From Rheinheimera sp. MM224 (GTDB taxonomy: Bacteria > Pseudomonadota > Gammaproteobacteria > Enterobacterales > Alteromonadaceae), in assembly GCF_947090785.1 (NCBI RefSeq), contig NZ_OX352320.1, forward strand, positions 4,081,001 through 4,145,000: DNA of 64,000 nucleotides. Reading direction: 5' to 3'. Each line of letters opens with the position of its first letter. The first letter of the stretch is position 1. This document shows, piece by piece, positions 43,948 to 63,459 of the stretch. The notes under the pieces were generated by a model. It was not told where the DNA came from and ran no database searches. It worked only from the letters and a program-made list of their open reading frames with translations. The position numbers and the translations under genes are program-made.

Positions 43948-44789
43948 ATGGCACTGGCCTTAGTTCACAGCAGAGCCCGCAGCGGTTTGCAGGCGCCGCT
44001 GGTCACAGTGGAGGTGCACCTGAGCCGGGGTTTGCCTGGATTTCAGTTGGTAGGCTTACCTGAAACTTCTGTCAAAGAAGCCAAAGACAGAGTACGCAGT
44101 GCACTGATTAACAGTGGTTTTGAGTTTCCGGATCATAAAATTACCGTCAATCTGGCCCCTGCAGATCTGCCCAAAGAAGGCGGGCGTTTTGATTTGGCGA
44201 TAGCCCTTGGCATATTGCATGCGAGCGGTCAGCTACAAGCAGATTTATCCGGTTATGAGTTTTTTGGTGAGCTGGCGTTGTCGGGTGAAATTCGTAGCAT
44301 AGTCGGAGAAATTCCCTTAGCTTTGGCCTGTAAAATGGCTGGGCATATCGCCGTGTTTCCGTTACAAAATGCCGTGCAAGCGCAACAAATTCCAGATATG
44401 CAGCTCTGTGGTGCCGAACATTTGTTACAGCTGCACGCCTTTTTATTACACCAGCAGGCCTTACCTGCTATTCCGGCAATTCCACATACTGAAGCTGAAC
44501 TTTATCCGGATCTGGCCGAAGTGCGCGGTCAGGCTCAGGCGAAAAGAGCACTGGAAATTGCCGCAGCCGGTGAACACAACTTGCTGATGTTTGGACCTGC
44601 AGGCACAGGTAAATCTATGCTGGCACAACGTTTACCCGGCATTCTCCCGACATTAACGGATCAGGAAGCATTAGAAACTGCTGCGATTTATTCTGTGGCA
44701 GCACAACCTCGTACTTTACAACAATGGCACCAGCGACCTTTTCGCCAGCCTCACCACACCTGCTCCGCCGTCGCATTGGTAGGGGGTGG
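43948..44789 (+). pseudogene. comM: comM, 5' fragment (interrupted by the Tn7-like element)
   Basis: The first 280 or so codons of a ComM/YifB magnesium-chelatase-like AAA+ helicase, with LSRGLPGFQLVGLPETSVKE, the Lon-like domain and Walker A GPAGTGKSM (about residue 217). The frame runs on to VGGG and then leaves host sequence at 44790. Joining 43948-44789 with 62802-63459 restores exactly 1500 bases, a 499-residue protein (E. coli YifB has about 506). ComM promotes branch migration during natural transformation. The break separates Walker A from Walker B, so this fragment should be inactive. TTAAGGATGA is the ribosome site. Confidence 0.95.
44785..44789. repeat. 5-bp target-site duplication, left copy (ggtgg)
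   Basis: The host bases just before the transposon end read ggtgg. The same five bases follow the right end at 62797-62801. A 5-bp duplication is what Tn7-like transposition makes, and removing one copy restores the comM frame. Confidence 0.95.
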
Positions 44790-44841
44790 TGTGAATTCCA
44801 CTAAATAAGACGACTATACAAAAAATAAAGCAACTGGCATA
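44790..44841. repeat. transposon left end with terminal repeat and two TnsB-site-like repeats
   Basis: The terminal repeat is 44790-44804 (TGTGAATTCCACTAA). Two related sites follow 20 bases apart: ACTAAATAAGACGACTATAC (44800-44819) and AAAAATAAAGCAACTGGCAT (44821-44840). They share the pattern AATAARRCRACT with sites of the right end, the arrangement by which TnsB binds Tn7 ends. Confidence 0.75.
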
Positions 44842-46766: not shown

Positions 46767-47132
46767 TTAGTTGAGCAATGTAATCAATGCAGCTTTTTTC
46801 GCAGATGAAAGAGTATCTAATTTCTTCAATATGAGACGCTCGTCTTCGGTCAATGGGTCGTGTTTTTTGATCATTGGCGTACCATCACCGGTAATAATCC
46901 AATGAATGTTAGCTGACATCCCTTCAAGATTTGCTATACGAGCCAAAGCATTCAACTTCTCTGGATCAATGAAACAACTGCCTGTCATAGCTTTTCGTAA
47001 AACCGAAGAGTTCGCATAACCCATATGTGACGAACACTGTTCGACTGATATGCCTAAGCAGTCAATAACTAAGTGCTTGAGTCGATGAGACATCTCCCTT
47101 TGTAGCTGGGTATTTTTCTTAGTTCTACTCAC
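46767..47132 (-). CDS. XRE-type helix-turn-helix regulator
   Basis: This 121-residue protein starts with GTG. Residues 20-70 look like a lambda-repressor fold (GISVEQCSSHMGYANSSVLRKA, then LNALARIANLEGM), and the ANIHWIITGDGTPM motif that follows is common in phage-type regulators. It is divergent from the base-modification gene at 47244, and an 11-bp inverted repeat lies between them. It probably controls that gene and itself. Confidence 0.7.
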   Translation of the reverse strand: MSRTKKNTQLQREMSHRLKHLVIDCLGISVEQCSSHMGYANSSVLRKAMTGSCFIDPEKLNALARIANLEGMSANIHWIITGDGTPMIKKHDPLTEDERLILKKLDTLSSAKKAALITLLN

Positions 47133-47243: not shown

Positions 47244-48275
47244 ATGAAAATTGCCACCCTACATGATGTGTTCATTAAAAAGCAGCCACCAAAACTGTCT
47301 GTTGTATTTGAGACCTATTGGAGGTTTGCCTATTTACGTCAGCAAGCATTCTTCAGTCGTTTGTATAGTACGCAAGGACCATGGAGTGATGACAAAATCA
47401 TTAATGAATTTAAATTTACAAATGCATATCGTGCGTCAGACAGAGTCAGCCAATATCTAATAAAGCATGTGATTTATTCTAAAAAATGGTCAATCCAGGA
47501 CACTGTACTTCGGACACTTTTGTTTAAATTTTTTAACAAAATTGAGACATGGCAGCTTTTGGAAAAAGCATTTGGTGAAATATCACTGAAGACCTTTTCA
47601 GTTGAAGCCTACGCAAAGGTTTTACAGGAGGCAATGGACAAGCGGATAACTATTTATTCTGCGGCCTATATCATACCATCTGGTCCAAAACGTGATTATG
47701 AGGGTAAGCGTAAGCATCAGTTTCATCTTACATTATTAAGAGAACTCATGCAGGGAGGCTTCATTGATGATCTGATCGCTTGTAAATCAATGAAAGCGGC
47801 TTACCAACGCATTTTACAAATTGAGTCTTTAGGTAAGTTTTTGGCATACCAATTTGTAACTGACTTGAATTATTCAGACCATTTCCAATTTAGCGAGCAA
47901 GAGTTTGTTGTTCCTGGGCCTGGCGCACTGGATGGGATTCGGAAGTGTTTTACTCATTTGGGTGATTACACAGAAACGGACATCATTCATTTTATGATGG
48001 ACAGTCAGGAGCATCAATTTAGTCATTTGAACTACCCTTTTCAAAACCTTTGGGGCCGCGACCTGCAATTAATTGACTGCCAAAATTTATTCTGTGAAGT
48101 AGATAAATACTCCCGAGTTGCGCACCCTGACATCATGGGAATAAGTGGCAGAATGCGGATTAAGCAAAAGTTTAAACCGCAAAAAGCACCAGTAGAAGTT
48201 TGGTATCCACCAAAGTGGGGCCTCAATGACAAGATTTCTAAAGATTTTTCATTTCCTGAATTGGCGATAATGTGA
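47244..48275 (+). CDS. DNA base hypermodification-type protein (HMUDK_hel / aGPT-pyrophosphorylase-like)
   Basis: A 343-residue protein whose N-terminal segment (residues 24-78) has the family pattern TYWRFAYLRQQAFFSRL, PWSDDKII, FKFTNAYRASDRVSQYLIKH and VIY. This pattern marks the helical domain of 5-hydroxymethyl-deoxyuridine DNA kinases and related thymine-pyrophosphorylase-like proteins, which Iyer, Aravind and colleagues linked to thymine hypermodification in phage DNA. Residues 225-300 hold GPGALDGIRKCF and the conserved FQNLWGRDLQLIDCQNLFCEVDKYSRV block. No P-loop is visible, so kinase activity should not be assumed. Its 3' end overlaps the MazG-like gene by 38 bases, tail to tail. Confidence 0.65.
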   Translation: MKIATLHDVFIKKQPPKLSVVFETYWRFAYLRQQAFFSRLYSTQGPWSDDKIINEFKFTNAYRASDRVSQYLIKHVIYSKKWSIQDTVLRTLLFKFFNKIETWQLLEKAFGEISLKTFSVEAYAKVLQEAMDKRITIYSAAYIIPSGPKRDYEGKRKHQFHLTLLRELMQGGFIDDLIACKSMKAAYQRILQIESLGKFLAYQFVTDLNYSDHFQFSEQEFVVPGPGALDGIRKCFTHLGDYTETDIIHFMMDSQEHQFSHLNYPFQNLWGRDLQLIDCQNLFCEVDKYSRVAHPDIMGISGRMRIKQKFKPQKAPVEVWYPPKWGLNDKISKDFSFPELAIM

Positions 48276-49317
48276 GTGTGCGTGCATCAGCATCCACACT
48301 CAGCACACCTGAGCCTGTTTTCTTAAGCTCACGGAAAATGCGATAACTCTCTAATATACAGTGCTGCCATTCCCATGGCTCACAATCGCTAACCTCGTAG
48401 CCACGAACTAACCGCTGTACTCGTTTAATTAAATCTAAATCAACCCACTTAATGTTTTCAAGAAAGCTTGGGCGAGCGTAATCATAGATGTGATTGATAA
48501 TGGCTTCCTCGATTATTGCAGCACGAGCACCATCTTCTACCTCATCTTTTTTTGGTTGGCTTTTACGTTTGGCTTTCAATAGGCTTCTGAAAACTGGTGA
48601 CCACCCCAAAAGGCCTGCACCTGCAATGTGAAAAACATCATGAAATCTATAACCATCGTCTTCATATGAATTATCTGTCAGCCGATCGCCAAGCTGAATA
48701 CCATTCATCCTCATAATGGTCGAATTAGACTGCTCTATAGGTAAAAACTCAATTTCAAATTTGCGAGGCAACTGTTCATAGTATGGACAATCTTTGTCAA
48801 ACTGACGGGCTGAAAGCCCACTAGGGTGCGCCCAATACGCGATTGTTTTATTGATACAATTCAAAGCAATAACTGACAGATTTTGATTAATAAAACTGGC
48901 CAAATGCTGCAGGTTAATCAGAATATCTTGGATTAACTTATTTGTTTCTTCCAAAACAGGTTCTTGAGAAGTTAGTAAATATCTGCGTTTATGCAACAAA
49001 TAAACATGGTCAAGTAACGCATAGATCAATTCAAACTCATCATGCGTGACGCCGTCTGAAGTCGGCCAATCGCGTAAGACAATATTCATTCGACTTGCCA
49101 TTGTCACGACGTACCATAGTATATCGCCGATTTCTTCAGCAAAATGCAATTCAAAATCATTATAAGCATTCTGATCACGCTGCTTTTTCTTTAACACTGA
49201 GGCGAGTGATCCAAGCTCTCCGATGGCTCCGAGTATCGCTATATCGGGCCCATGGAGTTGTGCCCAGTTAATACGTACGGTTCTTGTTGCTTCTTCCTGA
49301 AACCTTTTTGCATCCAT
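48238..49317 (-). CDS. MazG-like NTP pyrophosphohydrolase with extra C-terminal domain
   Basis: This 359-residue protein has an all-alpha MazG fold in its first 110 residues. The metal-binding motif is visible: GELGSL with E34, then FAEEIGDILWYV with E61, E62 and D65. MazG enzymes cut dNTPs to monophosphate and pyrophosphate. The next 240 residues form a second helical region (HPSGLSARQFDKDCPYYEQL, GYRFHDVFHIAGAGLLGWSP, and REEAIINHIYDYARPSFLE-like text), which I cannot name; its H-x3-H, E and D residues suggest metal binding. It is the last gene of the minus-strand cargo operon, 3 bases after the ThyA-like gene. Confidence 0.7.
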   Translation of the reverse strand: MDAKRFQEEATRTVRINWAQLHGPDIAILGAIGELGSLASVLKKKQRDQNAYNDFELHFAEEIGDILWYVVTMASRMNIVLRDWPTSDGVTHDEFELIYALLDHVYLLHKRRYLLTSQEPVLEETNKLIQDILINLQHLASFINQNLSVIALNCINKTIAYWAHPSGLSARQFDKDCPYYEQLPRKFEIEFLPIEQSNSTIMRMNGIQLGDRLTDNSYEDDGYRFHDVFHIAGAGLLGWSPVFRSLLKAKRKSQPKKDEVEDGARAAIIEEAIINHIYDYARPSFLENIKWVDLDLIKRVQRLVRGYEVSDCEPWEWQHCILESYRIFRELKKTGSGVLSVDADARTLTLSPIQEMKNL

Positions 49318-49320
49318 GAG

Positions 49321-50082
49321 TTAGCCCTTTAGTGAACTAAGTAATTTACGAAAGTCGCGTACTTTACCAGTGTGATCAAGAGTGGCGTACGTAGCATGAC
49401 AAACAAGAGTGCCCATCTCTACACCAACTTCGCGGCACACAAAATCCTGTAATCGCGCTAAACCTAATAGGTTACCCATAGCTTTTTCAATGAAAAATTG
49501 AGAACGATAAATGGCTGTCAGGTGAACTTCAGAGCGGTCATGGGACAACTTAAAACTAAGATGGCTCAAACATGGGAATGCATAAAGACTGGCGTCGTTG
49601 CGGTTGATCGGTATCGTCTGACATTCATCAAGCGATATCTCATTGGCGCAGCGAGCACCATTGGTTTCGATCATGCGCCTGATTCTATCTACAACATATG
49701 CCAACGGATTAAAAGCCTCTCCATCTTCTTTTTTTCCCTGGACTAAACGCAAAGCATAAGTACCTCGCTGATTAGCTTTTACATGCCGCAACTGTGGATA
49801 AATCTCGTTTGGATATATTTTATAAATCCCGTCCGTACCATATTTTTTGTACAATGCTGCCGGAAAAATCGTATCAGCTACCGTTTGTACAGAATACAAA
49901 TCATGATTAGTTAAAAAAGTATCAAATTCTCGTCTAATATTCCTTGAACGTTCGCTCGTTGCTCCTGGCTTTTTTATTTCAAGTATTAGGTTGTACTCAA
50001 TATTGTGTTCTGCTTCTGCTTCGAGATGCTGAACAGCTTCCAACCACGCTTCCTCTCGTGTTTCCGCGCTAATGACTTTCAT
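49321..50082 (-). CDS. thymidylate-synthase-like protein
   Basis: A 253-residue protein whose C-terminal half resembles ThyA/hydroxymethylase folds: a conserved cysteine in AFPCLSHLSFKL (C171, in place of the ThyA PCH motif), AIYRSQFF (R193-S194, the phosphate-binding arginine-serine), then AMGNLLGLARLQDFVCREVG and MGTLVCHATYATLD. The usual aspartate after RS is missing and the histidine is shifted by two residues, so the reaction may differ from thymidylate synthesis, for example a hydroxymethyl or other C5 change of a pyrimidine nucleotide. It overlaps the protease gene by 14 bases. The MazG gene follows it directly. Confidence 0.65.
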   Translation of the reverse strand: MKVISAETREEAWLEAVQHLEAEAEHNIEYNLILEIKKPGATSERSRNIRREFDTFLTNHDLYSVQTVADTIFPAALYKKYGTDGIYKIYPNEIYPQLRHVKANQRGTYALRLVQGKKEDGEAFNPLAYVVDRIRRMIETNGARCANEISLDECQTIPINRNDASLYAFPCLSHLSFKLSHDRSEVHLTAIYRSQFFIEKAMGNLLGLARLQDFVCREVGVEMGTLVCHATYATLDHTGKVRDFRKLLSSLKG

Positions 50083-50725
50083 TTAGATGGCTTACCTCAA
50101 GTAATGCGATTGTCCGTTTGTTTATAAAATTCTCAGATAACCAACAATGTCCTTTGTCTCCCCACTCGGGTCCCCAGCTGTTTCTAATTAAATAGTATTT
50201 AGATCCGGAAGATAGTAGACCTATGCCGACAACTACCACTGCGTGGAAACCTACATGATCATCTTCTTCATCGAGCATAAAAGGTGAAGTGATAGTTCTA
50301 AATGCATCGGGCAAGGAAATACAGGCTACTGTCACAACGCCTTTGTCTAGTTGCCCATCGATGGAGGAAGTAAAATCGAACGACTCACATGAATGTACGC
50401 GGTAGCGACCTGATAAACTCTGAGGTGGCACTTTGGGGGCGTCAGCTTCTATATCGTAAGGTAAACTTGTTTCATCAGGCTGGCCAATATGCTTCAAAGT
50501 ATCTATCACACTGCGTGTTGTCAGACCATTGTCGTAATCTGAATGCCCCTCTTTTAGATATGCGTGATAAGCTAAAAATTCGACTGATAGAGGATATAAC
50601 ACTCTATTGCTCATGGAGTTCAAATCACTGGCGGCAAAAGCAAGACAAAGAGGTCGATATCCCTGATCACGGACATCTGGCATCAAAGCTCTTAAATCAT
50701 AAGTAACGGTTAATTCATCACTCAT
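50069..50725 (-). CDS. papain-family (C1) cysteine protease
   Basis: This 218-residue protein has the complete papain triad: VRDQGYRPLCLAFAASD with C27 (and Q21 for the oxyanion hole), GFHAVVVVGIG with H161, and LIRNSWGPEWGDKGHCWL with N182. It has no signal peptide and little or no propeptide, so it should be an active cytosolic protease that must be held in check in another way. The gene upstream encodes a chagasin-type inhibitor domain and overlaps it by 4 bases. The substrates are unknown. Confidence 0.85.
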   Translation of the reverse strand: MSDELTVTYDLRALMPDVRDQGYRPLCLAFAASDLNSMSNRVLYPLSVEFLAYHAYLKEGHSDYDNGLTTRSVIDTLKHIGQPDETSLPYDIEADAPKVPPQSLSGRYRVHSCESFDFTSSIDGQLDKGVVTVACISLPDAFRTITSPFMLDEEDDHVGFHAVVVVGIGLLSSGSKYYLIRNSWGPEWGDKGHCWLSENFINKRTIALLEVSHLNESH

Positions 50726-51696
50726 TGTTTATATGCCCGAGGTAAACCACTTTCTTTACCACGGAAATCGATGGTAACGTCAAACTGATTTAAAGGTGCT
50801 TTGCCAACCTCCCAAGGCCTTTTTTCATGTGTATGCAGTTCAGTAACTGCGGTCCCTTTTAACACCATTTTGCGTCTTGATACACCGCCTATCGAGTGGC
50901 CATCTGACGTCGTGTGTATATCAACGATTTTGTCGATATTTTCTAATTGAGATACATCGCTCCAGGCAAATCCACTTGTAGAGTGCTCAGGTAAATCAAG
51001 GATGATTGTGTCTTCTTCACTAGACAAAATATACCCATCGTTATCGCTTTCAGTAAGATGAAACACATCAGGATGAGAGGCGTTCAGACCTAATCCTTTT
51101 AACAGAGCTTGCTTAATTTGTTTAGGTTGCACTTGCGCTGCATGTTGAGATTCTTGCTGTGAGATAAATTTAAAATTTTGCAATGCTACCCTTGTCGCCG
51201 AATAACTGACTCCAAGTCTCAATGACAGCTGATAGATAACTTCCGGATTTTTTAAATCATGCTTTGAATAATTCTGTCGTCTAATTGTGTAACCGACTAG
51301 GGTCTTCGGTAAAATAAACTCAGAGGCAAAAGCTTCCGCTTCAACCTCTTGAAGCGGCGGATTATCACCGTTTCTAACAGCAGTGATCAACTCCTCACTA
51401 TCAACGCTCGTTCCATGCTTTAGCCAAAAATGACCAAGCTCATGCGCAGCCGTAAATCGCTGGATTGGCAATCGTCGGTTAGTTGAGATCAACACGCCAC
51501 AAGTATTATTGTGAGTTGTGTAGGCCCCTAATAACCCGTCAAGGGGACGGCATACTGTTACGATGTCTAGTTGCTTTAAGCATTCAAAAATATCAATTTG
51601 CTGCAAGCCATTCCTTATTTTCTCCTTCAACCCGAAGTGAGCCAAGGCTTCTGATGCTCCGCGGGTACCTCGCAATGTAGCTTCTCGATAATCCAT
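50722..51696 (-). CDS. ImmA/IrrE metallopeptidase fused to a chagasin-type cysteine-protease inhibitor
   Basis: A 324-residue two-domain protein. Residues 60-140 are an ImmA/IrrE-type zinc peptidase: AAHELGHFWLKH (H85, E86, H89) and the third ligand in EAEAFASEFILP. Residues 208-312 carry all three chagasin/I42 loops: STSGFAW (239-245, usually NPTTGYxW), SIGGVSRR (IGG at 269-271) and KRPWEVGKAP (RPW 293-295). Chagasin proteins plug the active site of papain-like proteases. The gene follows an XRE regulator with a 1-base overlap and precedes the papain-like protease, so I infer a sensor-inhibitor for that protease. Confidence 0.8.
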   Translation of the reverse strand: MDYREATLRGTRGASEALAHFGLKEKIRNGLQQIDIFECLKQLDIVTVCRPLDGLLGAYTTHNNTCGVLISTNRRLPIQRFTAAHELGHFWLKHGTSVDSEELITAVRNGDNPPLQEVEAEAFASEFILPKTLVGYTIRRQNYSKHDLKNPEVIYQLSLRLGVSYSATRVALQNFKFISQQESQHAAQVQPKQIKQALLKGLGLNASHPDVFHLTESDNDGYILSSEEDTIILDLPEHSTSGFAWSDVSQLENIDKIVDIHTTSDGHSIGGVSRRKMVLKGTAVTELHTHEKRPWEVGKAPLNQFDVTIDFRGKESGLPRAYKQ

Positions 51697-52034
51697 TATT
51701 CACCTGCTGACTTCATTGATAAAAACTCGGCAAACTTCTCTAATTCTTTTCTATCATTATCAGATAATTGCTCAATTTTTCTTGCGAACACTGCCGCATT
51801 TGGGTTTGGCTCGACACTAAAGTTTTCGGCTGTAAAATAGGCGATAGGTCGTTGATAAAGCTTTGCTAAAGCCATTAGCTCAACCGTATCTAGCTTCCGT
51901 TGGCCATTTTCAATAAGCGATAGAGCAGTTCGATTTATCCCTATGTGTTTCGCTACAACTTCTTGCGAGATATCCAGATACTCACGGGCTTCTTTAAGCT
52001 TTGCACCAATAACAAGACGGGTTTCTGTAGACAT
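51696..52034 (-). CDS. XRE-type regulator (partner of ImmA/IrrE)
   Basis: This 112-residue protein has a canonical helix-turn-helix (GAKLKEAREYLDISQEVVAK, then INRTALSLIENGQRKLD) and a C-terminal helical tail. XRE proteins next to ImmA/IrrE peptidases are commonly their cleavage targets, as in ImmR/ImmA or DdrO/IrrE. Here the two genes overlap by one base. I infer that cleavage of this repressor could induce the operon. Confidence 0.8.
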   Translation of the reverse strand: MSTETRLVIGAKLKEAREYLDISQEVVAKHIGINRTALSLIENGQRKLDTVELMALAKLYQRPIAYFTAENFSVEPNPNAAVFARKIEQLSDNDRKELEKFAEFLSMKSAGE

Positions 52035-52046
52035 AATGTTGCTCTT

Positions 52047-52346
52047 CTAATTTGATTGAAACTCGAGTTCAAGTTGCTCCATTATATGCTCAACCGCTTC
52101 AACTACTGAGTCATATCCCCCGCATTTGATCCAGGTAGGATCAAGCTTAGTGCCAGTATATTTTTGAATCGTTGGAGACAATTTAACTACGGCCTTGGAA
52201 TCTACAGCTGGAGTTTCCCATAGCCCTTTCTTGTCGGTTTCAAACTCAGCAAACTCTACTTCGGCTTCCAGTTCTTCAATTAAGTCTGATTTAAGATCAT
52301 CTTTAATCCCTTCGTACTCTTGTTTGCTGATCGTAATACTGGTCAT
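52047..52346 (-). CDS. acyl-carrier-protein-like small protein
   Basis: A 99-residue acidic protein. Residues 44-92 (ETPAVDSKAVVKLSPTIQKY, TGTKLDPTWIKCGGYDSVVE, AVEHIMEQL) follow the helix 2 to helix 4 pattern of acyl carrier proteins, with Asp49-Ser50 in the place of the DSL phosphopantetheine site. The first 40 residues form an acidic helix. The neighbouring gene 53 bases upstream encodes a phosphopantetheinyl transferase, which supports the call. The site reads DSK instead of DSL and the GGY loop before helix 4 is unusual. A ribosome site AGGAAG is present. If not a carrier protein it is an unknown acidic protein. Confidence 0.5.
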   Translation of the reverse strand: MTSITISKQEYEGIKDDLKSDLIEELEAEVEFAEFETDKKGLWETPAVDSKAVVKLSPTIQKYTGTKLDPTWIKCGGYDSVVEAVEHIMEQLELEFQSN

Positions 52347-52399
52347 GTTTACACTTCCTGTTGCTTTATCTTACAATCTAAGCTTAAAATGTTAGAAAA

Positions 52400-53062
52400 T
52401 CAAACATTATGCGTTATCCAGCATGCTGCGATCACCCACGGCCTTGTCAGCAAAAGGCGGCCATGACAAATAATGTCACCATTTAACACCGAATATTCAT
52501 AGGTATCCTTCGCCAACTGCCTTAGTCCTGGTGAGATGTTGCGGATGTTTAGGCTTGTATCACTCTTTGCGTGTTTCAGTGCTTTATAAGCACTTTCTTT
52601 TGCTGAAAAGAGTATTGAACAGTATTCATTGAACGGCGCATCAATATGCTCATGTAATGCTAGGTCTGACGAATTGACAAATACAGGTGAAGGTTTTTCG
52701 CTCCAGTTATCGATGGTCTCGATATCAACTCCGAGTGAGCAGTATTCGTTATTAGAAGCCGCAATGCTAACGACAAATGGATACTTGTGGGATAGGGAAC
52801 CTACAACACCTGGTGGCAATATTGGTTTTCCGTCTTCACTTCGTCCTATAGTAAAAGTCTTATCATAAAAAGCCGTGATAGCTTTCCGTAGACAGTTTCG
52901 TCCTGCAACGAATTCAGCTTTCCGCCCTCGGCTAGCATTTTCACTCAATGCAAACTCATCCATCTTCAATGGTGTTTGAAAATCATTGATAAAGCCGCTA
53001 CTTACACTCATATTTTCTGGTGTCAGTCTCGATAATGCTTGCGCTAATGTACCAATATCCAT
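52400..53062 (-). CDS. 4'-phosphopantetheinyl transferase (Sfp/EntD type)
   Basis: This 220-residue enzyme has the family's landmarks: RKAEFVAGRNCLRKAI (about 47-62), GRSEDGKPILPPGVVGSLSH (73-92), the magnesium site GVDIE (D113, E115) and FSAKESAYKALK (K155, E156, K160). It should transfer phosphopantetheine from CoA to a carrier protein serine. No polyketide or peptide synthetase is in the window; the small carrier-like protein encoded next is the obvious substrate. It starts the minus-strand cargo operon, divergent from the dNMP-kinase-like gene with 111 bases between the starts. Confidence 0.82.
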   Translation of the reverse strand: MDIGTLAQALSRLTPENMSVSSGFINDFQTPLKMDEFALSENASRGRKAEFVAGRNCLRKAITAFYDKTFTIGRSEDGKPILPPGVVGSLSHKYPFVVSIAASNNEYCSLGVDIETIDNWSEKPSPVFVNSSDLALHEHIDAPFNEYCSILFSAKESAYKALKHAKSDTSLNIRNISPGLRQLAKDTYEYSVLNGDIICHGRLLLTRPWVIAACWITHNV

Positions 53063-53173
53063 ATTGTAATTTCTTGACCAAAGCTTGTTGCTATTTTCAG
53101 CACGTTATTTTGGTGAACACAAGCAAAATTACTAATTTGACTGTATGAGCTAACTCGCAAAGGAGTGTATTAC

Positions 53174-53728
53174 ATGCCACAGAGAATCGCCCTCATGGGG
53201 GTTTCAGGATCAGGTAAAGACTATACTGCAGATTATTTAATTAAAAATCATCAATTTACGCGATATTCATTTAGCGACCAGTTAAAGCGGCTCGCTCACC
53301 ACATTTACCCTTGGTTAGAATTAGATTACCCTCCGATCATTAAAGAAAAATCTTTAGACATACAGCTACTCACTGGCGAACGCATTACAAAATCACCTAG
53401 AGAAATATGGCTTCACTTAAACACATTAAGGGATATAGAGAACAATATTTTTATCCGTATGCTCTCCGAAGAAATTGAAGCTGTGCAGCTAAAAAATCCA
53501 ATATCGAATTTTCTAATATCAGACATCCGTTCAACAGATGAATTCCAGTGGTGTAAATCGAATAACTTTAAAATCATTTATATTAAGCATGAGAAACAGA
53601 TATATCAAGAATATGAAATTGACGCTGCAATCTCGCAAAATGCGCCTTACGCAGATTACACGTTTGTTAATAATTTCAATGGTATTGAAGAGTTTGAAGC
53701 ATTTTATCAAGCCAATCTTAAGTCTTAA
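53174..53728 (+). CDS. P-loop deoxynucleotide monophosphate kinase-like protein
   Basis: A 184-residue kinase of the dNMP-kinase/adenylate-kinase-like group with P-loop ALMGVSGSGKDYTADYL at the N-terminus, a YSFSDQLKRLAHHIYP segment after the first helix, and a C-terminal NFLISDIRSTDEF motif reminiscent of phage dNMP kinases. The ATG at 53174 has AAAGGAG 8 bases upstream, so it is chosen over the GTG at 53165. It would phosphorylate a modified or normal deoxynucleotide monophosphate, which fits the ThyA-like and MazG-like proteins of the same cassette. It is divergent from the phosphopantetheinyl transferase gene. Confidence 0.7.
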   Translation: MPQRIALMGVSGSGKDYTADYLIKNHQFTRYSFSDQLKRLAHHIYPWLELDYPPIIKEKSLDIQLLTGERITKSPREIWLHLNTLRDIENNIFIRMLSEEIEAVQLKNPISNFLISDIRSTDEFQWCKSNNFKIIYIKHEKQIYQEYEIDAAISQNAPYADYTFVNNFNGIEEFEAFYQANLKS

Positions 53729-56545: not shown

Positions 56546-58102
56546 TTATTGGTCAATCAACTTTAAGTAATGTCCTACAGCTCCACATGAAAGTGGCTGT
56601 GCACAGTTCCGTCCAGAGAATACAAATTTATTGCTATTACTCAATGAAACCCAGCGGTTAAAATGTTCCAAGAAAGCCCCATCAAGGCGAACGTCGATTG
56701 AGTCTGGCCACAGAACTAAGCCGTTTACTTCAATACGTACTTCCTCAACAAGCAAGGTCAGTACATATTTAAGCGGAATTTGATACAGGTCAGCTATCAG
56801 CTTTGCAAGCAATGCTTGAGCACAGCGAGGATCATCAATCTGCATTAAACGATGAAAAATAGTCTGAGTTCGTCGAACCAGTTCTCGGTCCTTTTTATTA
56901 ATCGGCATGGGTGCCTTATGATGCAACTTAAGCTCAATCCCATGGAAAGTACTCAAAAATTGCGCGAATGAGCTCAAACTTGCGATTTGTCCCCGACGTC
57001 GCTTTAAGTAGCTATCCATGTCTTTCTGCGTAATATCCTCTGGACTAATTACGTTTATTGTAGATAGAAAATTTGCAGCGGCTTTTTGGTACATTCGTAC
57101 AGTATTACTTTTTAAGGGAGGCTCTCGCTCCATTAATTGGGCGATGTAGGCTTGCAGAATGGGAAACCACGCTGCGCTGTGGTGGTGGCCTGTAAGCTGT
57201 GAAATTCGCCGGTTTTCGATCATTTCTTCAAGCCTTTCGTGGTCCCAGTGCAACGCTTTTTGCTCACAGAAAAATTTGATTACTAAATACCCACGCCTTA
57301 AACCCTCGCCTCCAAATATCTCAAAAAGTCGGCTTTGATTCAGTTCTTCCAGGGAGCTGCAGGAGCGATCAATTTCAGCAAAGAACACCCCATATCTATC
57401 TATACGCTTCGTTATGTTATCTGCAATGTTTAAACCATCCCAAGCGAAGAATGCTTCAAAAAGAGATCTGACCCAAGGTTGCTCTATTAACTCAATATTG
57501 AGCCTCATCCTCTTCTTGGCTCGTTCTGCAAGTTCACAAATGCGGCAAGTCGAGTGACCAAGCAATGTTGAGCCGCATGTCTGGCACAACCGATGTATAT
57601 CAGAACTATCAGCACATCGGGCGCATACAGGCTTCTGTTGTTCGTTAAAATGGAGAACATTACGGTATCGCCGACAAATACAGCATGTTCTGTGATCACT
57701 GTTCCGACAGCGATCACACACGGGCTGGTTAAATCCCTTAGTCAATGCTCGGCTTACCCGTTTTGACAACTTGCCACATTCTGCACATGGCGTTGGCTCC
57801 GTAAAATATATGACGCAAACAGCGCAGACTGCATGTCCATTGACTATTTTTGCTGCTTTCAGTACAGGTCGATTGCATCGGGGGCAGCGTCGGTCTTTTC
57901 GCTTACACAATGAGCATTTAGGATTGGCGTCGCCTTTAAGAACACGAGCCAGCTTTCCACAAAGAGTGCATTCAGCAGGCTTAAACTCACGGCTATAGCA
58001 AGTGCGACAGTATGTATGACCTTTCTCTATCCGACCGGCTTTATCCATTAAGCGCCCACACTCATCACAACGACGAATTTGTGCAGCCTCGCCGGTACTC
58101 AT
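56546..58102 (-). CDS. tnsF: TnsF target selector: zinc-ribbon array plus inactivated tyrosine recombinase
   Basis: A 518-residue protein. Residues 12-190 contain twelve C-x2-C pairs (CDEC, CRTC, CTLC, CSLC, CPRC, CAVC and more), enough for six zinc ribbons. The rest looks like a XerC/D-type recombinase: a core-binding helical domain (KSNTVRMYQKAAANFLSTI, DMDSYLKRRRGQIA) and a catalytic-fold relic that lacks the arginine, HxxR and tyrosine (end: GRNCAQPLSCGAVGHYLKL). TnsF of Tn6022-like elements has an inactivated recombinase domain and directs insertion to comM, where this element sits. It is last in the operon, overlapping tniQ by 4 bases. Confidence 0.85.
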   Translation of the reverse strand: MSTGEAAQIRRCDECGRLMDKAGRIEKGHTYCRTCYSREFKPAECTLCGKLARVLKGDANPKCSLCKRKDRRCPRCNRPVLKAAKIVNGHAVCAVCVIYFTEPTPCAECGKLSKRVSRALTKGFNQPVCDRCRNSDHRTCCICRRYRNVLHFNEQQKPVCARCADSSDIHRLCQTCGSTLLGHSTCRICELAERAKKRMRLNIELIEQPWVRSLFEAFFAWDGLNIADNITKRIDRYGVFFAEIDRSCSSLEELNQSRLFEIFGGEGLRRGYLVIKFFCEQKALHWDHERLEEMIENRRISQLTGHHHSAAWFPILQAYIAQLMEREPPLKSNTVRMYQKAAANFLSTINVISPEDITQKDMDSYLKRRRGQIASLSSFAQFLSTFHGIELKLHHKAPMPINKKDRELVRRTQTIFHRLMQIDDPRCAQALLAKLIADLYQIPLKYVLTLLVEEVRIEVNGLVLWPDSIDVRLDGAFLEHFNRWVSLSNSNKFVFSGRNCAQPLSCGAVGHYLKLIDQ

Positions 58103-59175
58103 TTGAGTAACGCCAATGCAAGTAATCGTTTTGCTCTGAGCTTGCGGTATGCTTTTCTATCAATTCGCTTTAACCGAAGTAGCTCTTCATCAAAAACTTT
58201 GGGTTCATATCGTCTATTTCGACTGGAGCCAGGTTTTAAACGCTGTATTTCCTCTCGCAGCCCTTTAGGTTGCCTCAATCGAGTAAACGTCTTTTGGCTA
58301 ATACCGGCAGCCTCAGCCCCTAAATGGAAGGATGCTGGCCAATCGGATATCCAAACGCTCAGCAGCTCCAGAAGTAAAAAACGCTCAGGCCATCGAGCAT
58401 GTTCAAATTGAAGGCGATCATGTGGTAACCAGGCAGTCTCAGGCAGGTTAAATGCGTCTCTTATTGCTGCATACGAAATCCGAACCGTTAATACAGACAA
58501 CAGACTACGGATAGCTGCAAATAATGCAGTCCCATGAAATGGGCCAATGTGCTCTGCAGTTGATGGCGTTAGCAAATTATTCAAAAGCAGCTTCTGCAAG
58601 TCCAGAAGTCGCTCTGAACAACTATTTTCTGTCATTGTGTTATGCAGACACGAATCACATTGATGGCAGTAGCGTGCATCTAAACGAAGAGAACGGTGGG
58701 GAATGACTGGGCTGCCACATGCAGGGCAACAATCTATGAGCGGGATACCATGCTCAGGACAGTATAAAACAAAGCCCAAACGCCATATACGTCGAAACCA
58801 ATATGGATGGTTTGAAAGACATTCAGGACAGAACTGCAGTCCATGCCGTCGTCTGGTCCGGTGGTACACACTGGCAGAAAGAAGCAGAGAGGTATCTCCA
58901 TAGCGTGAAGTACTCCCCAGGGACTGCCGAAAAGGAATGAGAGTGCTCGTGGCCAAAACCTCTGTTGACACACCAGCCAACTCAGAAACCTCACATAGCC
59001 ACTCTCGATCTGCAGATCTATCGCAATCGCGATCCCATAATGCTCTACCTGGCCAAAAGTAATTCATAAACAGGTAGGGGGTGGTTCCATGAGCATGGGC
59101 ATTGCGGATAAGAAAAGACGAAAGCAATTCATCAGGCTGAAGCTCTACCCTGAAAGGCCATTCTTCAAACTTCAT
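58099..59175 (-). CDS. tniQ: TniQ/TnsD-family target-selection protein
   Basis: This 358-residue protein has the TniQ domain at the start (LQPDELLSSFLIRNAHAHG) and zinc fingers (FCPECLSNHPYWFRRIWRLG, LYCPEHGIPLIDCCPACG, then YCHQCDSC). TniQ proteins bridge a target-binding factor and the TnsC filament. At this length it is shorter than Tn7 TnsD (508 residues) and probably works with TnsF rather than reading DNA alone. It is the fourth gene of the operon. Confidence 0.85.
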   Translation of the reverse strand: MKFEEWPFRVELQPDELLSSFLIRNAHAHGTTPYLFMNYFWPGRALWDRDCDRSADREWLCEVSELAGVSTEVLATSTLIPFRQSLGSTSRYGDTSLLLSASVYHRTRRRHGLQFCPECLSNHPYWFRRIWRLGFVLYCPEHGIPLIDCCPACGSPVIPHRSLRLDARYCHQCDSCLHNTMTENSCSERLLDLQKLLLNNLLTPSTAEHIGPFHGTALFAAIRSLLSVLTVRISYAAIRDAFNLPETAWLPHDRLQFEHARWPERFLLLELLSVWISDWPASFHLGAEAAGISQKTFTRLRQPKGLREEIQRLKPGSSRNRRYEPKVFDEELLRLKRIDRKAYRKLRAKRLLALALLK

Positions 59176-60062
59176 AGCAGCTGCGCTTGCTTACCGTAAT
59201 CAGAAAGTTTAACCCAATCGATTTGGTTAATCGTCTTGAGTGTAATGCGCTCGCTTCGGTCTCTAATCGATTGGGCTGTGGCTCGTTTTAGAATTCTGGA
59301 TAGTCCTCCAATTGTTCCTCCACTCATCCCATGGAGTTTGATTGCAATGTCACGGTCAATCAAATTAGAGGGATTGGCTAATGGCAGTAATCGCTCAAAG
59401 CTGGCGAGTAGTCGAAGAAATTCTGCATTGAGCTGCCAACGTGGTAACCCGAAGGGTTCAAATCGACTGGAGAGCTGCGGATCCGTGTGCAATGCACGAA
59501 TCGCGTCTCTGGTGCCTACAGAAACGATTGGGAGCTTTAGGTCATTACTCAAGTTTTTTAAAACACCCAAAAACTGACGCTGCTGCCTTGCATGCCCATA
59601 CAGTACATTATGGATCTCGTCGATGACCAACATCTTGCATCTGACATAAGTGAGAATCGAGTGGGCTTGGTTTTTTTTACGCTGGACAGGATCTGAATCT
59701 CTGTGTGCAATACGCAAAGCTAACAGCAACTCCGTCCAAAACCGTGATTCATTAGGTTCTGAGGGCATCCCCATAACAACAACCGGCATCAAGGGTTCGC
59801 CACCACCTGCAGCGGTAACTGGATGAAGTTCTCGAAATCTATCAATGATCGTCGTTTTGCCATTGCCACTTTCACCAACAAGCAGAAGATTCGGCATTCG
59901 AACCGTTCTAGGATGTGAAAGGAGATCTGAGAGCGTATTAATGGCTTCCTGAGCTCTGGTGTAACCAATCCATCTATCCTGGTGAGCAAAAGCAATACGT
60001 TCTTCCATCGGCAGAGTCATTGCGTTCCAAACAATCGGTTCCAAATGTTCGAATTGACTCAT
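59172..60062 (-). CDS. tnsC: TnsC/TniB AAA+ transposition regulator
   Basis: A 296-residue AAA+ ATPase with Walker A GESGNGKTTI (about residues 63-72), Walker B MLVIDEIHNVLYG and sensor-1 LPIVSVGTRDA. It forms filaments on target DNA and activates the transposase. It is TniB-sized, about half of Tn7 TnsC. It overlaps both neighbours by 4 bases. Confidence 0.92.
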   Translation of the reverse strand: MSQFEHLEPIVWNAMTLPMEERIAFAHQDRWIGYTRAQEAINTLSDLLSHPRTVRMPNLLLVGESGNGKTTIIDRFRELHPVTAAGGGEPLMPVVVMGMPSEPNESRFWTELLLALRIAHRDSDPVQRKKNQAHSILTYVRCKMLVIDEIHNVLYGHARQQRQFLGVLKNLSNDLKLPIVSVGTRDAIRALHTDPQLSSRFEPFGLPRWQLNAEFLRLLASFERLLPLANPSNLIDRDIAIKLHGMSGGTIGGLSRILKRATAQSIRDRSERITLKTINQIDWVKLSDYGKQAQLL

Positions 60063-62005
60063 GATTTAACCCTAAGATCATCAAATGGCTGAATGGGCAT
60101 AGAGAAAATATCATCTGAGCTGAAGCTCGTTTGAGATTGCTCTTTCGTGTGTATCTGGTCCTGTGCAGCAGGTTCAGTTGTAGCTGCGTTCAGGGTTTTA
60201 TCCTCACGGGCCTTCGCCTTCTGATGTGTGGTATTCATACGGTGGATCTGGCGTCTTGCTGCTTTTGTCTTCGTAATGGCAGCTTCTACACGCTCACGCA
60301 TTCGGCCAACAGCCTCAAATATGGCCTCTTCGTCTACATGCGCCTGTCCTTCCTCTTTTAATCGCTGCTGTGCAGCTCTAAGCTCCCACACACTAATTGG
60401 AGGGTGAGCGGCATTACGATAAGGGATTTCGTAGTACTGATTGGCGTCAGGATCAAAGAAATAGACAACGCTTATATCGCGGGGGTCTCTGCGTAAAATA
60501 AACTTCCGCTTAGCTTTGGACTGATTCAAATCTTGGGCATTAATCCAAGGATTCAAAACTTCGTGATAATAATAGATATCATCAATGACGACCCCGTAAG
60601 GCTGGACGGTGCGCTCTACAAACGGTAAAAAATCTAAGCACAGGCGTTGAGGATCTGCAGGAATATCGGGAATACCTTTTCCTGGACGGGACATGTCACC
60701 AAGTAACCCAATTTCCCACTGCCTACGTGGAGGTGCATTCAATTCAGAGTGTCTTCGCTGATGATAAACGTTAACAATGAAGTCTACCAAACGTTGCTCA
60801 AACTCCTTTAGGGTCAGGGCTGATTCTTTCTCTGAATCATATCCTTTTCGCTCTCTAGGCGAAGAAAATGTTGCACCAGGTAATGTTCTGATCTCTCCCG
60901 CGCTCGTGCCCATGAGCCTTTCGATATGCCCTCCATAATGAGGCACTTTTACCGGACGCATCTGCAGATCAATAGCATATTGCTCACAAGCTCTAGACAG
61001 CATTGAGCCTCGAAATTCTTTTGCATTGTCACAATGGACTATCCCCATTTTCCCCCAAACAGGCCAATCACCAGGGATATCCAAATCGACTAAATACTCG
61101 TTCTTTGGCAGCATGGCTCGGGCTAGGCACATCCCTACCGCAATAGCGCTTGGCTTCTCCATCGAGACATAACACCCTACGACCATCCTGCTAAAGATAT
61201 CAATCGCCAACGTAATCGTTGGGCGCCCCATTGGTAGGCGAGTAATTTCTTCAACAACGATGATGTCAGCCTCAGTGTGATCAATCTGAATCACAGCCAA
61301 TGGCGTTTCAGCGCCAGGGAAGCTCCCCATTATTGGCTCAAACTGATTGCGAGCTTTCTCAGCCATGCCTCGACGGCGCAGAGACATGGCCTGTGGAAGC
61401 TCACGTAAGCGATTCCTAACGGTATTTGGATGTGGGGCTTCAATCCCTGCTTTCTTGCAGAGATAAGCGACATGGTTAACAACATCTTGGGGTTTCTGAC
61501 GCTGCTTACTTAGATAAATATCATTGATGGCCACTTCAATGACTTTTTCGATGGTGGCTTGCAGTTGTCTTGAGCCCCGCTTAGGGCCTCTTTTTTGCGG
61601 AATGAGTGCGGACAAATGCCCAGCATCATTAAAAGTACGCAGCCATTCATAAACCGTGGCAGTGTTGACACCAGCACCTGCAGCAACTTGAGTTACTTTT
61701 TCTCGCGTCCGGTCAAGATCATTCAGCAATGGCTTTATGACTTGAAAGCGTCGTTGTGCTTCCGCCCAATCCTCATCTGAAATATCACAGATATCGCGAC
61801 CAATTATAGAGTTGGCATCCACATCCTGCGGGTTTTCTGGAGGAAGTGGCCGAAGCCTGTCTACACGCAGCCGCTCTGTTTGTTTAGTCTCCAGATCGTC
61901 GGCTAAGACGCTGTCCATACCCAATAAATGAGTTATTTTGTAGCGTCTGCCTTCGGCGAAAACTACTGAGCCAGGTTTTACTGAAAGAAAAACTGAGTTA
62001 GTCAT
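60059..62005 (-). CDS. tnsB: TnsB DDE transposase
   Basis: This 648-residue Mu/TniA-type transposase joins 3' ends to the target. The DDE triad is D242 (IQIDHTE), D326 (GIVHCDNAKEF) and E362 (GGHIERLMGT). Helix-turn-helix regions that bind the ends are near residues 100-125 (VAAGAGVNTATVYEWLRTF) and 175-205. A beta-barrel and a C-terminal helical tail, which usually contacts TnsC, follow. It overlaps tnsA by 4 bases. Confidence 0.93.
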   Translation of the reverse strand: MTNSVFLSVKPGSVVFAEGRRYKITHLLGMDSVLADDLETKQTERLRVDRLRPLPPENPQDVDANSIIGRDICDISDEDWAEAQRRFQVIKPLLNDLDRTREKVTQVAAGAGVNTATVYEWLRTFNDAGHLSALIPQKRGPKRGSRQLQATIEKVIEVAINDIYLSKQRQKPQDVVNHVAYLCKKAGIEAPHPNTVRNRLRELPQAMSLRRRGMAEKARNQFEPIMGSFPGAETPLAVIQIDHTEADIIVVEEITRLPMGRPTITLAIDIFSRMVVGCYVSMEKPSAIAVGMCLARAMLPKNEYLVDLDIPGDWPVWGKMGIVHCDNAKEFRGSMLSRACEQYAIDLQMRPVKVPHYGGHIERLMGTSAGEIRTLPGATFSSPRERKGYDSEKESALTLKEFEQRLVDFIVNVYHQRRHSELNAPPRRQWEIGLLGDMSRPGKGIPDIPADPQRLCLDFLPFVERTVQPYGVVIDDIYYYHEVLNPWINAQDLNQSKAKRKFILRRDPRDISVVYFFDPDANQYYEIPYRNAAHPPISVWELRAAQQRLKEEGQAHVDEEAIFEAVGRMRERVEAAITKTKAARRQIHRMNTTHQKAKAREDKTLNAATTEPAAQDQIHTKEQSQTSFSSDDIFSMPIQPFDDLRVKS

Positions 62006-62685
62006 ACAAACCCCTCACCCGCAGTAACCCATATCGACGAGGCCATAGTCAACGGTCCTCGCAAATCAACCTGAACTCTCCTAATTGCAACCAGACGCCA
62101 TAAGGACGCCATTGCTTTCATACGATTCTCCAGAGTCCAATAGGCTGCTATTAGTAATTTTTCTGGCGTTGTTTCACCTAGGATTGCTAATGTACGAACC
62201 AAATGCTCCTCAATTGAAAAATTGGGAGTTTGATCACGGTATGTACGCAAAAATTTTGCATTAGCCAAGTATGAAGTTCCACGTATCTCAGCGTCAGTAA
62301 TAATCTTAAACTTCATGTCATTGAGCTTTGAATAACGAATTGCAGCTCTGAATTTAGGCTTTAATTTGCTCCACTCATCTTTCAGATTTGCACGATACTT
62401 AACTTCATAGATAACTCTCTCGCCGTTATCGTATCCAACTAAATAATCTGGAGTGTAGAACCTCTCACGACCTTCATCACTTTCATACGTAATCCGAACA
62501 GGTTGCTCAAAAACGTCGACTACCATCGGGTCAAAATCTAGCATGATCAAAAAATCACGTTCCAGAGACGACTCGAATGGAATTGAAATACCACCAATCG
62601 CCACTTTGCCTGTAACACTACGATGATTCATACCGATAATTCGGGCAGGCCGCCTCGAATCCAGTCGCGTGATTTTCTGTGACAT
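62002..62685 (-). CDS. tnsA: TnsA endonuclease
   Basis: A 227-residue restriction-fold endonuclease that cuts the 5' ends during Tn7-like transposition, making it cut-and-paste. The catalytic pattern is visible: PFESSLERDFLIML (E near residue 38), YTPDYLVGY (D) and VIYEVKY (E-x-K). It is the first gene of the operon, reading inwards from the right end; a TnsB-like site may overlap its first codons. Confidence 0.9.
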   Translation of the reverse strand: MSQKITRLDSRRPARIIGMNHRSVTGKVAIGGISIPFESSLERDFLIMLDFDPMVVDVFEQPVRITYESDEGRERFYTPDYLVGYDNGERVIYEVKYRANLKDEWSKLKPKFRAAIRYSKLNDMKFKIITDAEIRGTSYLANAKFLRTYRDQTPNFSIEEHLVRTLAILGETTPEKLLIAAYWTLENRMKAMASLWRLVAIRRVQVDLRGPLTMASSIWVTAGEGFV

Positions 62686-62796
62686 TTAGAACCAGTCGCC
62701 TCAACTGATGTTACCTAGTCGCTTTAATTAATGTAGCGCACTATGTAACTTATTGATCAATGGTATCTACAATCGCATAAATTAATGGAATTCACA
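62660..62796. repeat. transposon right end with terminal repeat and TnsB-site-like repeats
   Basis: The terminal repeat is 62782-62796 and differs from the left end by one base in 15. Read inwards on the minus strand, related sites have their GCGA-containing cores at 62771-62777 (TGCGATT), 62717-62723 (AGCGACT), 62694-62700 (GGCGACT) and perhaps 62663-62669 (CGCGACT). The right end thus has three or four sites against two at the left, an asymmetry as in Tn7. Confidence 0.72.
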
Positions 62797-62801
62797 GGTG
62801 G
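62797..62801. repeat. 5-bp target-site duplication, right copy (ggtgg)
   Basis: The second copy of the target duplication, matching 44785-44789. The host comM frame resumes with it: ggt ggt tcg gtg would code GGSV in the intact gene. Confidence 0.95.
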
Positions 62802-63459
62802 TTCGGTGCCTCGTCCCGGAGAAATATCTTTAGCTCACAGTGGCATTTTATTTTTGGATGAAGTGCCAGAGTTTCCGCGCACAGTGCTTGAGTCGTTACG
62901 CCAACCTCTGGAAAGTGGCAAAGTGTTTATTTCCAGAGCAGCGCGGCAGGCCGAATTTCCAGCCTGCTTTCAATTGGTCGTTGCATTGAACCCAAGCCCT
63001 TCAGGGCATCATAAAGATGGCCGCTCCAGTCCTGATCAAATCCGCCGCTATTTAAGCCGCTTATCTGGTCCTTTTCTTGACCGGATTGAATTACAGGTAG
63101 AAGTCCCTTTATTGCCCAAAGGCAGTTTAAGCCAGCAGAAAAATGAAGAGTCCAGTGCGCAAGTAAGACAAAGGGTCCACTCTGCCAGAGTTATACAATG
63201 GCAACGACAAGGCAAAGCCAATGCGCGTTTAAACCTGACTGAACTGGAGCAACATTGTTATTTAACGCCAGCAGATGCCTACTACTTTGAAAGCTGTCTG
63301 ACCCAGCTGAAACTTTCAGCACGCAGTTATCATAAGTTGCTCAAAGTAGCGCGAACTCTGGCCGACTTAGCGCAGCGGCCTCAGATTGAGCGCCATGATT
63401 TACTCGAAGCCTTAAGCTACCGTTCTTTTGACCGCTTACTTAACTATTTGCAATCCTAA
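62802..63459 (+). pseudogene. comM: comM, 3' fragment
   Basis: The C-terminal 219 codons of ComM, from SVPRPGEISLAHSG through Walker B GILFLDEVPEF, the arginine-rich sensor region ISRAARQAEFPACFQLVVALNPSPSGHHK and the C-terminal YHKLLKVARTLADL helix. A start codon inside the transposon end (62785) could give a short protein, MEFTGGSVPRPG, but without Walker A it should not function. It overlaps the convergent transporter gene by 3 bases. Confidence 0.95.

Follow-up and report, generated by a model that had tools for sequence, protein, structure and literature searches.

A conserved mobile gene module with a thymidylate-synthase-like enzyme, a carrier protein and protease control as a likely anti-phage system

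A gene cassette of Rheinheimera sp. MM224 was analyzed in a window of 64,000 nucleotides (contig NZ_OX352320.1, positions 4,081,001 to 4,145,000 of the forward strand), which is the whole stretch of DNA studied here. The cassette is part of the cargo of an 18,007-bp Tn7-like element that interrupts comM. It combines a ThyA-like enzyme with a MazG-like protein, a glycosylase-type enzyme, an acyl-carrier-like protein with its likely transferase, and M78 and papain proteases. Support is very strong for the module and its two co-variation rules, and an anti-phage role is likely. More tentatively, the cassette is read as a mobile, inducible and protease-gated module that processes uracil-type deoxynucleotides and would most likely halt the DNA synthesis of phages or plasmids by depleting or poisoning the pool of pyrimidine nucleotides. 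A sequence-only reading of this DNA had named the genes within 6.5 kb, and profile scans and open reading frames (ORFs) confirmed all of them (Table 1).

The conservation of the gene set was determined with the ThyA-like protein, for which 616 homologues were found at E<=0.001. With a 33-row alignment of the family as the query, one genome scan yielded 59 loci, and a single viral contig was found as well. The neighbor-profile table holds 59 rows: the window, the viral contig and 57 genome loci. Since no ThyA ORF was picked in L024 and L058, these two were left out. Within these 59 rows, the papain-family C1 protease was present in 52, the M78 protease in 51, the helix-turn-helix (HTH) protein in 50, the carrier in 49, MazG_C in 45, the HMUDK_hel protein in 25, a protein like uracil-DNA glycosylase (UDG) in 24, and the transferase in 19, with 5 more of a second kind. 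The neighbor set thus returns in most of the 58 other loci, and also on several plasmids, beyond what chance would give. Thirty-three loci had full flanks of at least 9 kb on each side. In 29 of these 33, the carrier, HTH, M78, C1 and MazG_C genes and one glycosylase-type gene were all present with the ThyA-like gene; the set was incomplete in L019, L045, L056 and L061. Co-occurrence in other genomes was the check set beforehand for the sequence-only reading, and its absence, the outcome that would have told against that reading, was not found.

The 29 complete loci contain 28 distinct ThyA-like sequences and belong to Pseudomonadota (26), Nitrospinota (1), Myxococcota (1) and Planctomycetota (1). 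ThyA-like loci, complete or not, were further found in Acidobacteriota, Chloroflexota, Verrucomicrobiota and Bdellovibrionota. Plasmid cassettes extend to Actinomycetota and Cyanobacteriota, where papain and chagasin are absent, and to the haloarchaeon Haloarcula marina, where both are present and where MazG_C was not found within 8 kb on either side. Full, partial or variant cassettes therefore span ten bacterial phyla as well as one haloarchaeon, although single phylum assignments may be wrong because many loci are metagenome bins. This spread on transposons and plasmids suggests selection. MazG_C is rare: within the class, it was found in 2 of 274 genomes, the window's own included. A distant homologue used as a DNA query had no match in E. 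coli genomes. A phage-borne system was also considered and rejected, because a search of 50,697 phage records gave no relative of the ThyA-like protein at E<=1e-5 and only a single viral contig was found.

The ThyA-like protein was not recovered as ThyA by Pfam or by PDB-sequence profile search. The methanogen-type thymidylate synthase model TIGR03283 gave 52.4 bits (cut-off 174.55), which backs the ThyA assignment, and hhalign aligned the family with the host ThyA and a second ThyA family (E 1.2e-4, probability 55%). The residue register was taken from hhalign, and positions are named after the residues of E. coli ThyA, such as the folate-contacting Asp and the catalytic Glu. The catalytic Cys, the phosphate-binding Arg and the uracil-recognizing Asn of ThyA are present in the family: Cys171, Arg193 and Asn204 are each conserved in 58 of 58 rows, one gapped row aside, and Tyr109 in 56 of 56. 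The folate-Asp position (Y25 W9 H9 F8 D5) and the catalytic-Glu position (E16 N12 G11 D5 A4) are not conserved. The altered active site noticed by the sequence-only reading thus holds for the folate side and the Glu position, but the nucleophilic Cys is kept. A plain thymidylate synthase was rejected, since the folate-side residues are altered. Our reading of this pattern is that the enzyme would bind and covalently activate a uracil nucleotide without the standard folate site. As a separate observation, genes of a second thymidylate synthase family (PF00303) were found by profile in cassettes L009, L011, L017, L019, L034 and L062 and by annotation in L078, and a dCTP deaminase-like gene accompanies them in L011, L034 and L078.

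The MazG protein has the all-alpha fold of the MazG / dimeric dUTPase superfamily. Foldseek with the MazG model returned no E below 0.001 and gave no fold for MazG_C, a domain that was never folded or searched singly. In the motif ExxE plus ExxD, which we take to be the metal site of this superfamily, E34 is conserved in 46/46 rows, E61 in 43/46 and D65 in 44/46. The first Glu of ExxE is apparently replaced, as read by eye.

The glycosylase-type enzyme of the window matches PF18723 (aGPT-Pplase / HMUDK_hel) with 342 bits against a cut-off of 25, and it consists of the helical domain only. Its predicted structure is nearest to a queuosine-salvage protein, a phage 5-PmdU glycinyltransferase and DNA glycosylases, and the model shows the HhH-GPD glycosylase fold. 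A kinase function was rejected because the fold matches are glycosylase-type proteins, and the name "nucleotide kinase domain-containing protein" in public plasmid records may be misleading. PDB-sequence profile searches with the UDG-like and HMUDK_hel families, and with one UDG-like protein singly, gave nothing useful. Across 72 ThyA-like loci, HMUDK_hel was found in 35, a UDG-type enzyme in 26 and both in none, so that 61 of the 72 loci pair a glycosylase-type enzyme with the ThyA-like one. The glycosylase-type fold, together with the replacement of HMUDK_hel by an enzyme of UDG-superfamily type, indicates N-glycosidic or base chemistry. Cassettes of the UDG class (L018, L030-L060) often have two additions: DUF4031 occurs in 20 loci, and a second HTH gene is present in 18 at E<1e-30.

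Two alternatives start from this enzyme. The sequence-only reading had proposed that modified thymines are made and installed in DNA. The match of the model to the 5-PmdU glycinyltransferase leaves such a base-modification role open. The proposal was weakened by the swap of HMUDK_hel for a UDG-type enzyme, by the helical domain standing alone, and by the lack of any 5-hydroxymethyluracil (5-hmU) DNA kinase recognized by Pfam in the scanned cargo, where DNMK was the sole nucleotide kinase found. Protease-controlled expression would also be more in keeping with an induced response than with a permanent mark on DNA. Hypermodification of host or element DNA is therefore regarded as quite improbable. 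In the second alternative, the HMUDK_hel- or UDG-type enzyme would excise modified uracils from phage DNA while the other enzymes guard the host pools, comparable to Brig1 and Brig3 acting on modified cytosines. UDG-superfamily glycosylases are proven defense enzymes, according to excerpts of PMC11078745 and of the preprint PMC13160076, and HMUDK_hel relatives were found in 439 phage records; among 30 matches listed, one is annotated as alpha-glutamyl/putrescinyl thymine pyrophosphorylase. This direct attack leaves the carrier, the transferase and the ThyA-like enzyme unexplained, and it is considered improbable.

The phosphopantetheine serine of the carrier (Ser50) was present in all 54 loci found by profile, with the window included; the underlying table of 55 rows contains the window twice. 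Carriers from loci without C1 also have this Ser, as judged by eye. Comparison of the carrier profile with PDB gave 29 weak matches (E 0.004-1), of which 19 are named carrier proteins. PF00550 matches the Streptomyces carrier (L067) at 1.2e-7, over the cut-off, and the window's own carrier-like protein passed no curated cut-off in Pfam or NCBIfam. A transferase gene was found nearby in 23 of 35 HMUDK loci versus none of 26 UDG loci. The hosts of the UDG class would thus need to provide their own transferase.

These carrier data bear on a small-molecule route, in which the product, a compound of nucleoside or base type acting as a toxin, signal or antimetabolite, would be built on the carrier. 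Nucleoside antibiotics are made with pairs of a ThyA-type hydroxymethylase and a glycosidase, which follows the same logic. The invariant Ser, the nearby transferase genes and the pairing of the glycosylase-type with the ThyA-like enzyme agree with this route. However, no gene for adenylation, ligation, export or other carrier loading was found among the 11 gene clusters present in at least 10 loci, and several cassettes lie on transposons and on plasmids near defense genes. This route is considered not very probable.

The module also carries its own protease control. Among 63 M78 loci, including the window, chagasin and papain were both present in 56, both absent in 7, and never found one without the other. 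The seven loci without them are three Streptomyces loci and four cyanobacterial or rhizobial plasmids. They fall in two clades, which indicates few independent events, and the C-termini of their M78 proteins may be diverged or may be a different domain. The chagasin domain PF09394 in the M78 fusion scored 27.2 bits, at the cut-off. The loop motifs, which presumably are those of chagasin, are conserved at G242 (50/51 rows), W245 (48/51) and W295 (48/51), so that both the profile and the loop-motif test point to chagasin. The papain protease retains its Gln (50/50), Cys (50/50), His (49/50) and Asn (49/50), and the HExxH motif of M78 is present in 50 of 51 rows, the remaining row being gapped. 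The simplest reading of these sequences is that the chagasin domain would be the inhibitor and the papain protease its target. The HTH gene adjoins the gene of the HExxH M78 protease, as in an HTH-M78 switch. The PADLOC models capH (1e-11) and capP (7e-17) matched the HTH and M78 proteins, respectively, and no PADLOC model matched the other core proteins of the window.

A working sequence of steps can be proposed from these domains. At rest, the HTH protein would repress the operon and the chagasin domain would keep the papain protease inactive. Upon infection or damage, the M78 protease would remove the repressor and the operon would be induced. The papain protease would then be released to cleave a target. 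The MazG/dUTPase-like enzyme would yield a (d)UMP-type nucleotide, and the Cys of the ThyA-like enzyme would bond to the uracil ring and activate C5. The donor to this enzyme would not be the usual folate; plausibly, the carrier would serve instead through its phosphopantetheine arm. Last, the base-sugar bond would be cut or exchanged by the HMUDK_hel- or UDG-type enzyme, which would make the reaction irreversible. This specific nucleotide mechanism is held with reservation, as it is drawn from sequence. A stronger version is doubtful: this would be the first immune pathway, shared by bacteria and haloarchaea, in which the intermediate, a nucleobase or a nucleotide, is tethered to a carrier by its phosphopantetheine arm. 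There, the ThyA-like Cys would activate dUMP, the carrier thiol in place of folate would take or give the C5 group, the base would be freed by a glycosylase with one or the other of two unrelated folds, and a papain protease gated by a fused chagasin domain would switch the pathway on.

The genomic context was examined for known defense genes. Genes for a caspase-family protein and a pYEATS protein lie upstream of the Rhizobium ruizarguesonis cassette (L064:1000-4022), whose ThyA-like gene is annotated in two pieces. SIR2 was found beside the cassette at one locus, and ABC-three-component proteins at one. Several other cassette stretches were viewed with no defense gene alongside. In a Gloeothece plasmid (L074:114-9355), CBASS phospholipase and TIR genes flank a HMUDK_hel-MazG_C pair; no ThyA-like gene was found in this 10-kb stretch, and the set is possibly a different system. 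At 1e-15, PADLOC matched 125 families in 111 flank ORFs versus 6 in 111 control ORFs, which lie in 16 remote stretches and belong to nine of the cassette genomes. The tally counts families, several of which match one protein, and the flank set spans a larger number of genomes than the control and was reduced by manual thinning, so the excess is a lead and not a measured enrichment. Among the three roles named by the sequence-only reading (host DNA modification, a nucleoside-type compound, or phage arrest), the anti-phage role is the best supported. Housekeeping of the nucleotide pool, which would aid replication of the transposon or plasmid without any defense role, would account for the dUTPase-, ThyA-, dCTP deaminase- and kinase-type genes and for the location on plasmids and transposons. 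The arrangement of repressor, protease and inhibitor and the defense-gene neighbors both argue against it, and this explanation is very unlikely.

The sequence-only reading had also placed the carrier, transferase and controlled protease on a transposon. This was confirmed by profiles, by perfect 11-bp terminal inverted repeats read directly at the ends, and by a 5-bp target-site duplication; the set is both mobile and conserved. With TniB and TniQ also present, the element belongs to the Tn7-like transposons at comM. TniA and TnsA were assigned by eye from sequence, with no profile scan behind these two names. The host ComM is expected to be inactive, as its gene is interrupted. The G+C content of the cargo is about 0.38-0.42, versus mostly 0.44-0.49 left of the element. 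Relatives of the 598-aa element protein adjoin cassettes in the Pseudomonas loci L030, L040 and L048, and relatives of the integrase-SAM-like protein do so in L030 and L048. These Pseudomonas cassettes are thus probably carried by related transposons. A small regulator gene next to HMUDK_hel recurs by the cassette in L003 and L020.

On the minus strand, the order from upstream to downstream is phosphopantetheinyl transferase, carrier, HTH, M78-chagasin, papain protease, ThyA-like and MazG/MazG_C. The genes overlap by 1 bp (HTH/M78), 4 bp (M78/C1) and 14 bp (C1/ThyA). The HMUDK_hel gene is convergent to this operon and overlaps the end of the MazG gene by 38 bp. A promoter and terminator scan gave chance level only. 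The deoxynucleoside monophosphate (dNMP) kinase gene is divergent and upstream of the transferase gene. This kinase, also named by the sequence-only reading, is present in the window. A search of the L002-L062 ORFs, apart from the plasmid loci, gave no relative at E<=1e-4; the kinase was therefore rejected as a core part and is taken as a local extra. In the haloarchaeal plasmid cassette, a dTMP kinase gene adjoins HMUDK_hel (L066:2612-4246), parallel to the dNMP kinase of the window.

Table 1 Features of the Tn7-like element and its cassette, in window positions.
Feature	Position	Strand	Evidence or remark
comM, two pieces	43948-44808; 62785-63459		Interrupted by the element
Target-site duplication, left	44785..44789		GGTGG, 5 bp
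Left terminal inverted repeat	44790..44800		TGTGAATTCCA; element start 44790
Element protein	44881-46677		598 aa; no Pfam match
Small regulator gene	46767-47132		
HMUDK_hel protein	47244-48275	+	PF18723 E=3e-102
MazG / dimeric-dUTPase-like + MazG_C	48238-49317	-	MazG 17.2 bits (weak; cut-off 22); MazG_C PF18722 E=3e-70
ThyA-like enzyme	49321-50082	-	TIGR03283 4.6e-14 (under cut-off); PHROG thymidylate synthase 0.0015
Papain-family C1 protease	50069-50725	-	Profile 1e-10; catalytic residues intact
M78 (ImmA/IrrE) metalloprotease-chagasin fusion	50722-51696	-	M78 4e-14; chagasin I42 5e-6
HTH repressor-like protein	51696-52034	-	HTH_3 3e-11
Acyl-carrier-like protein	52047-52346	-	Phosphopantetheine Ser50; NCBIfam ACP model 0.0024, under cut-off
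4'-phosphopantetheinyl transferase	52400-53062	-	Profile 3e-15
dNMP kinase	53165-53728	+	DNMK 1e-9; PHROG 4e-38
Transposition genes	56546..62685	-	Integrase-SAM-like, TniQ, TniB (Pfam); TniA-, TnsA-like by eye
Integrase-SAM-like protein	56546-58102	-	
Right terminal inverted repeat	62786..62796		TGGAATTCACA; element end 62796
Target-site duplication, right	62797..62801		GGTGG, 5 bp

The sequence-only reading knew of no described system with this set, and word searches of the literature found no description of the combination, though an earlier in-silico mention of parts of the operon is still possible. Four ideas come together here, a combination absent from the literature searched: carrier chemistry, thymidylate-synthase-type activation, interchangeable glycosylase-type enzymes, and a papain protease with its likely inhibitor. 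This raises a testable question, whether phages can be resisted via a carrier-bound or base-less pyrimidine nucleotide.

Single parts of the module resemble known systems. The ThyA-like enzyme shares the Cys nucleophile, the phosphate Arg and the uracil Asn with the methanogen-type thymidylate synthases, but scores far under the TIGR03283 cut-off and lacks conservation at the folate-Asp and catalytic-Glu positions. The HTH gene beside an M78 HExxH protease gene is as in CapH/CapP and ImmR/ImmA; in contrast to these, the M78 protein here bears a papain-inhibitor domain and a papain protease lies next to it. Phage thymidine hypermodification (aGPT-Pplase / PUGT) is similar in HMUDK_hel homology and fold and in using a ThyA-type enzyme. 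Excerpts of PMC6449724 describe the phage 5hmdU DNA kinase step, and excerpts of PMC11955845 list the phage gene set. The cassette differs in having no recognized 5-hmU DNA kinase, in that HMUDK_hel can be swapped for a UDG-type enzyme, in the carrier and protease control, and in a ThyA-like enzyme with no relative in the phage records searched at E<=1e-5. Validated E. coli defense systems with thymidylate synthase and 5-hydroxymethyluracil kinase domains were reported in 2026 (DefensePredictor, PMC13092281); figure legends further name dNMPk, NMAD and UDG, and MazG-C and aGPT-Pplase are listed there as predicted. These TS/dNMPk/5hmdUk/NMAD systems share domain types with the cassette, whereas a carrier and a phosphopantetheinyl transferase are not named in the portions of text and legends compared. 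Brig1 and Brig3 show the UDG superfamily in defense, and class 2 of the module has a UDG-type enzyme. Brig1 is reported to provide immunity on its own by excising modified cytosine from phage DNA, whereas the cassette enzyme is one of several genes.

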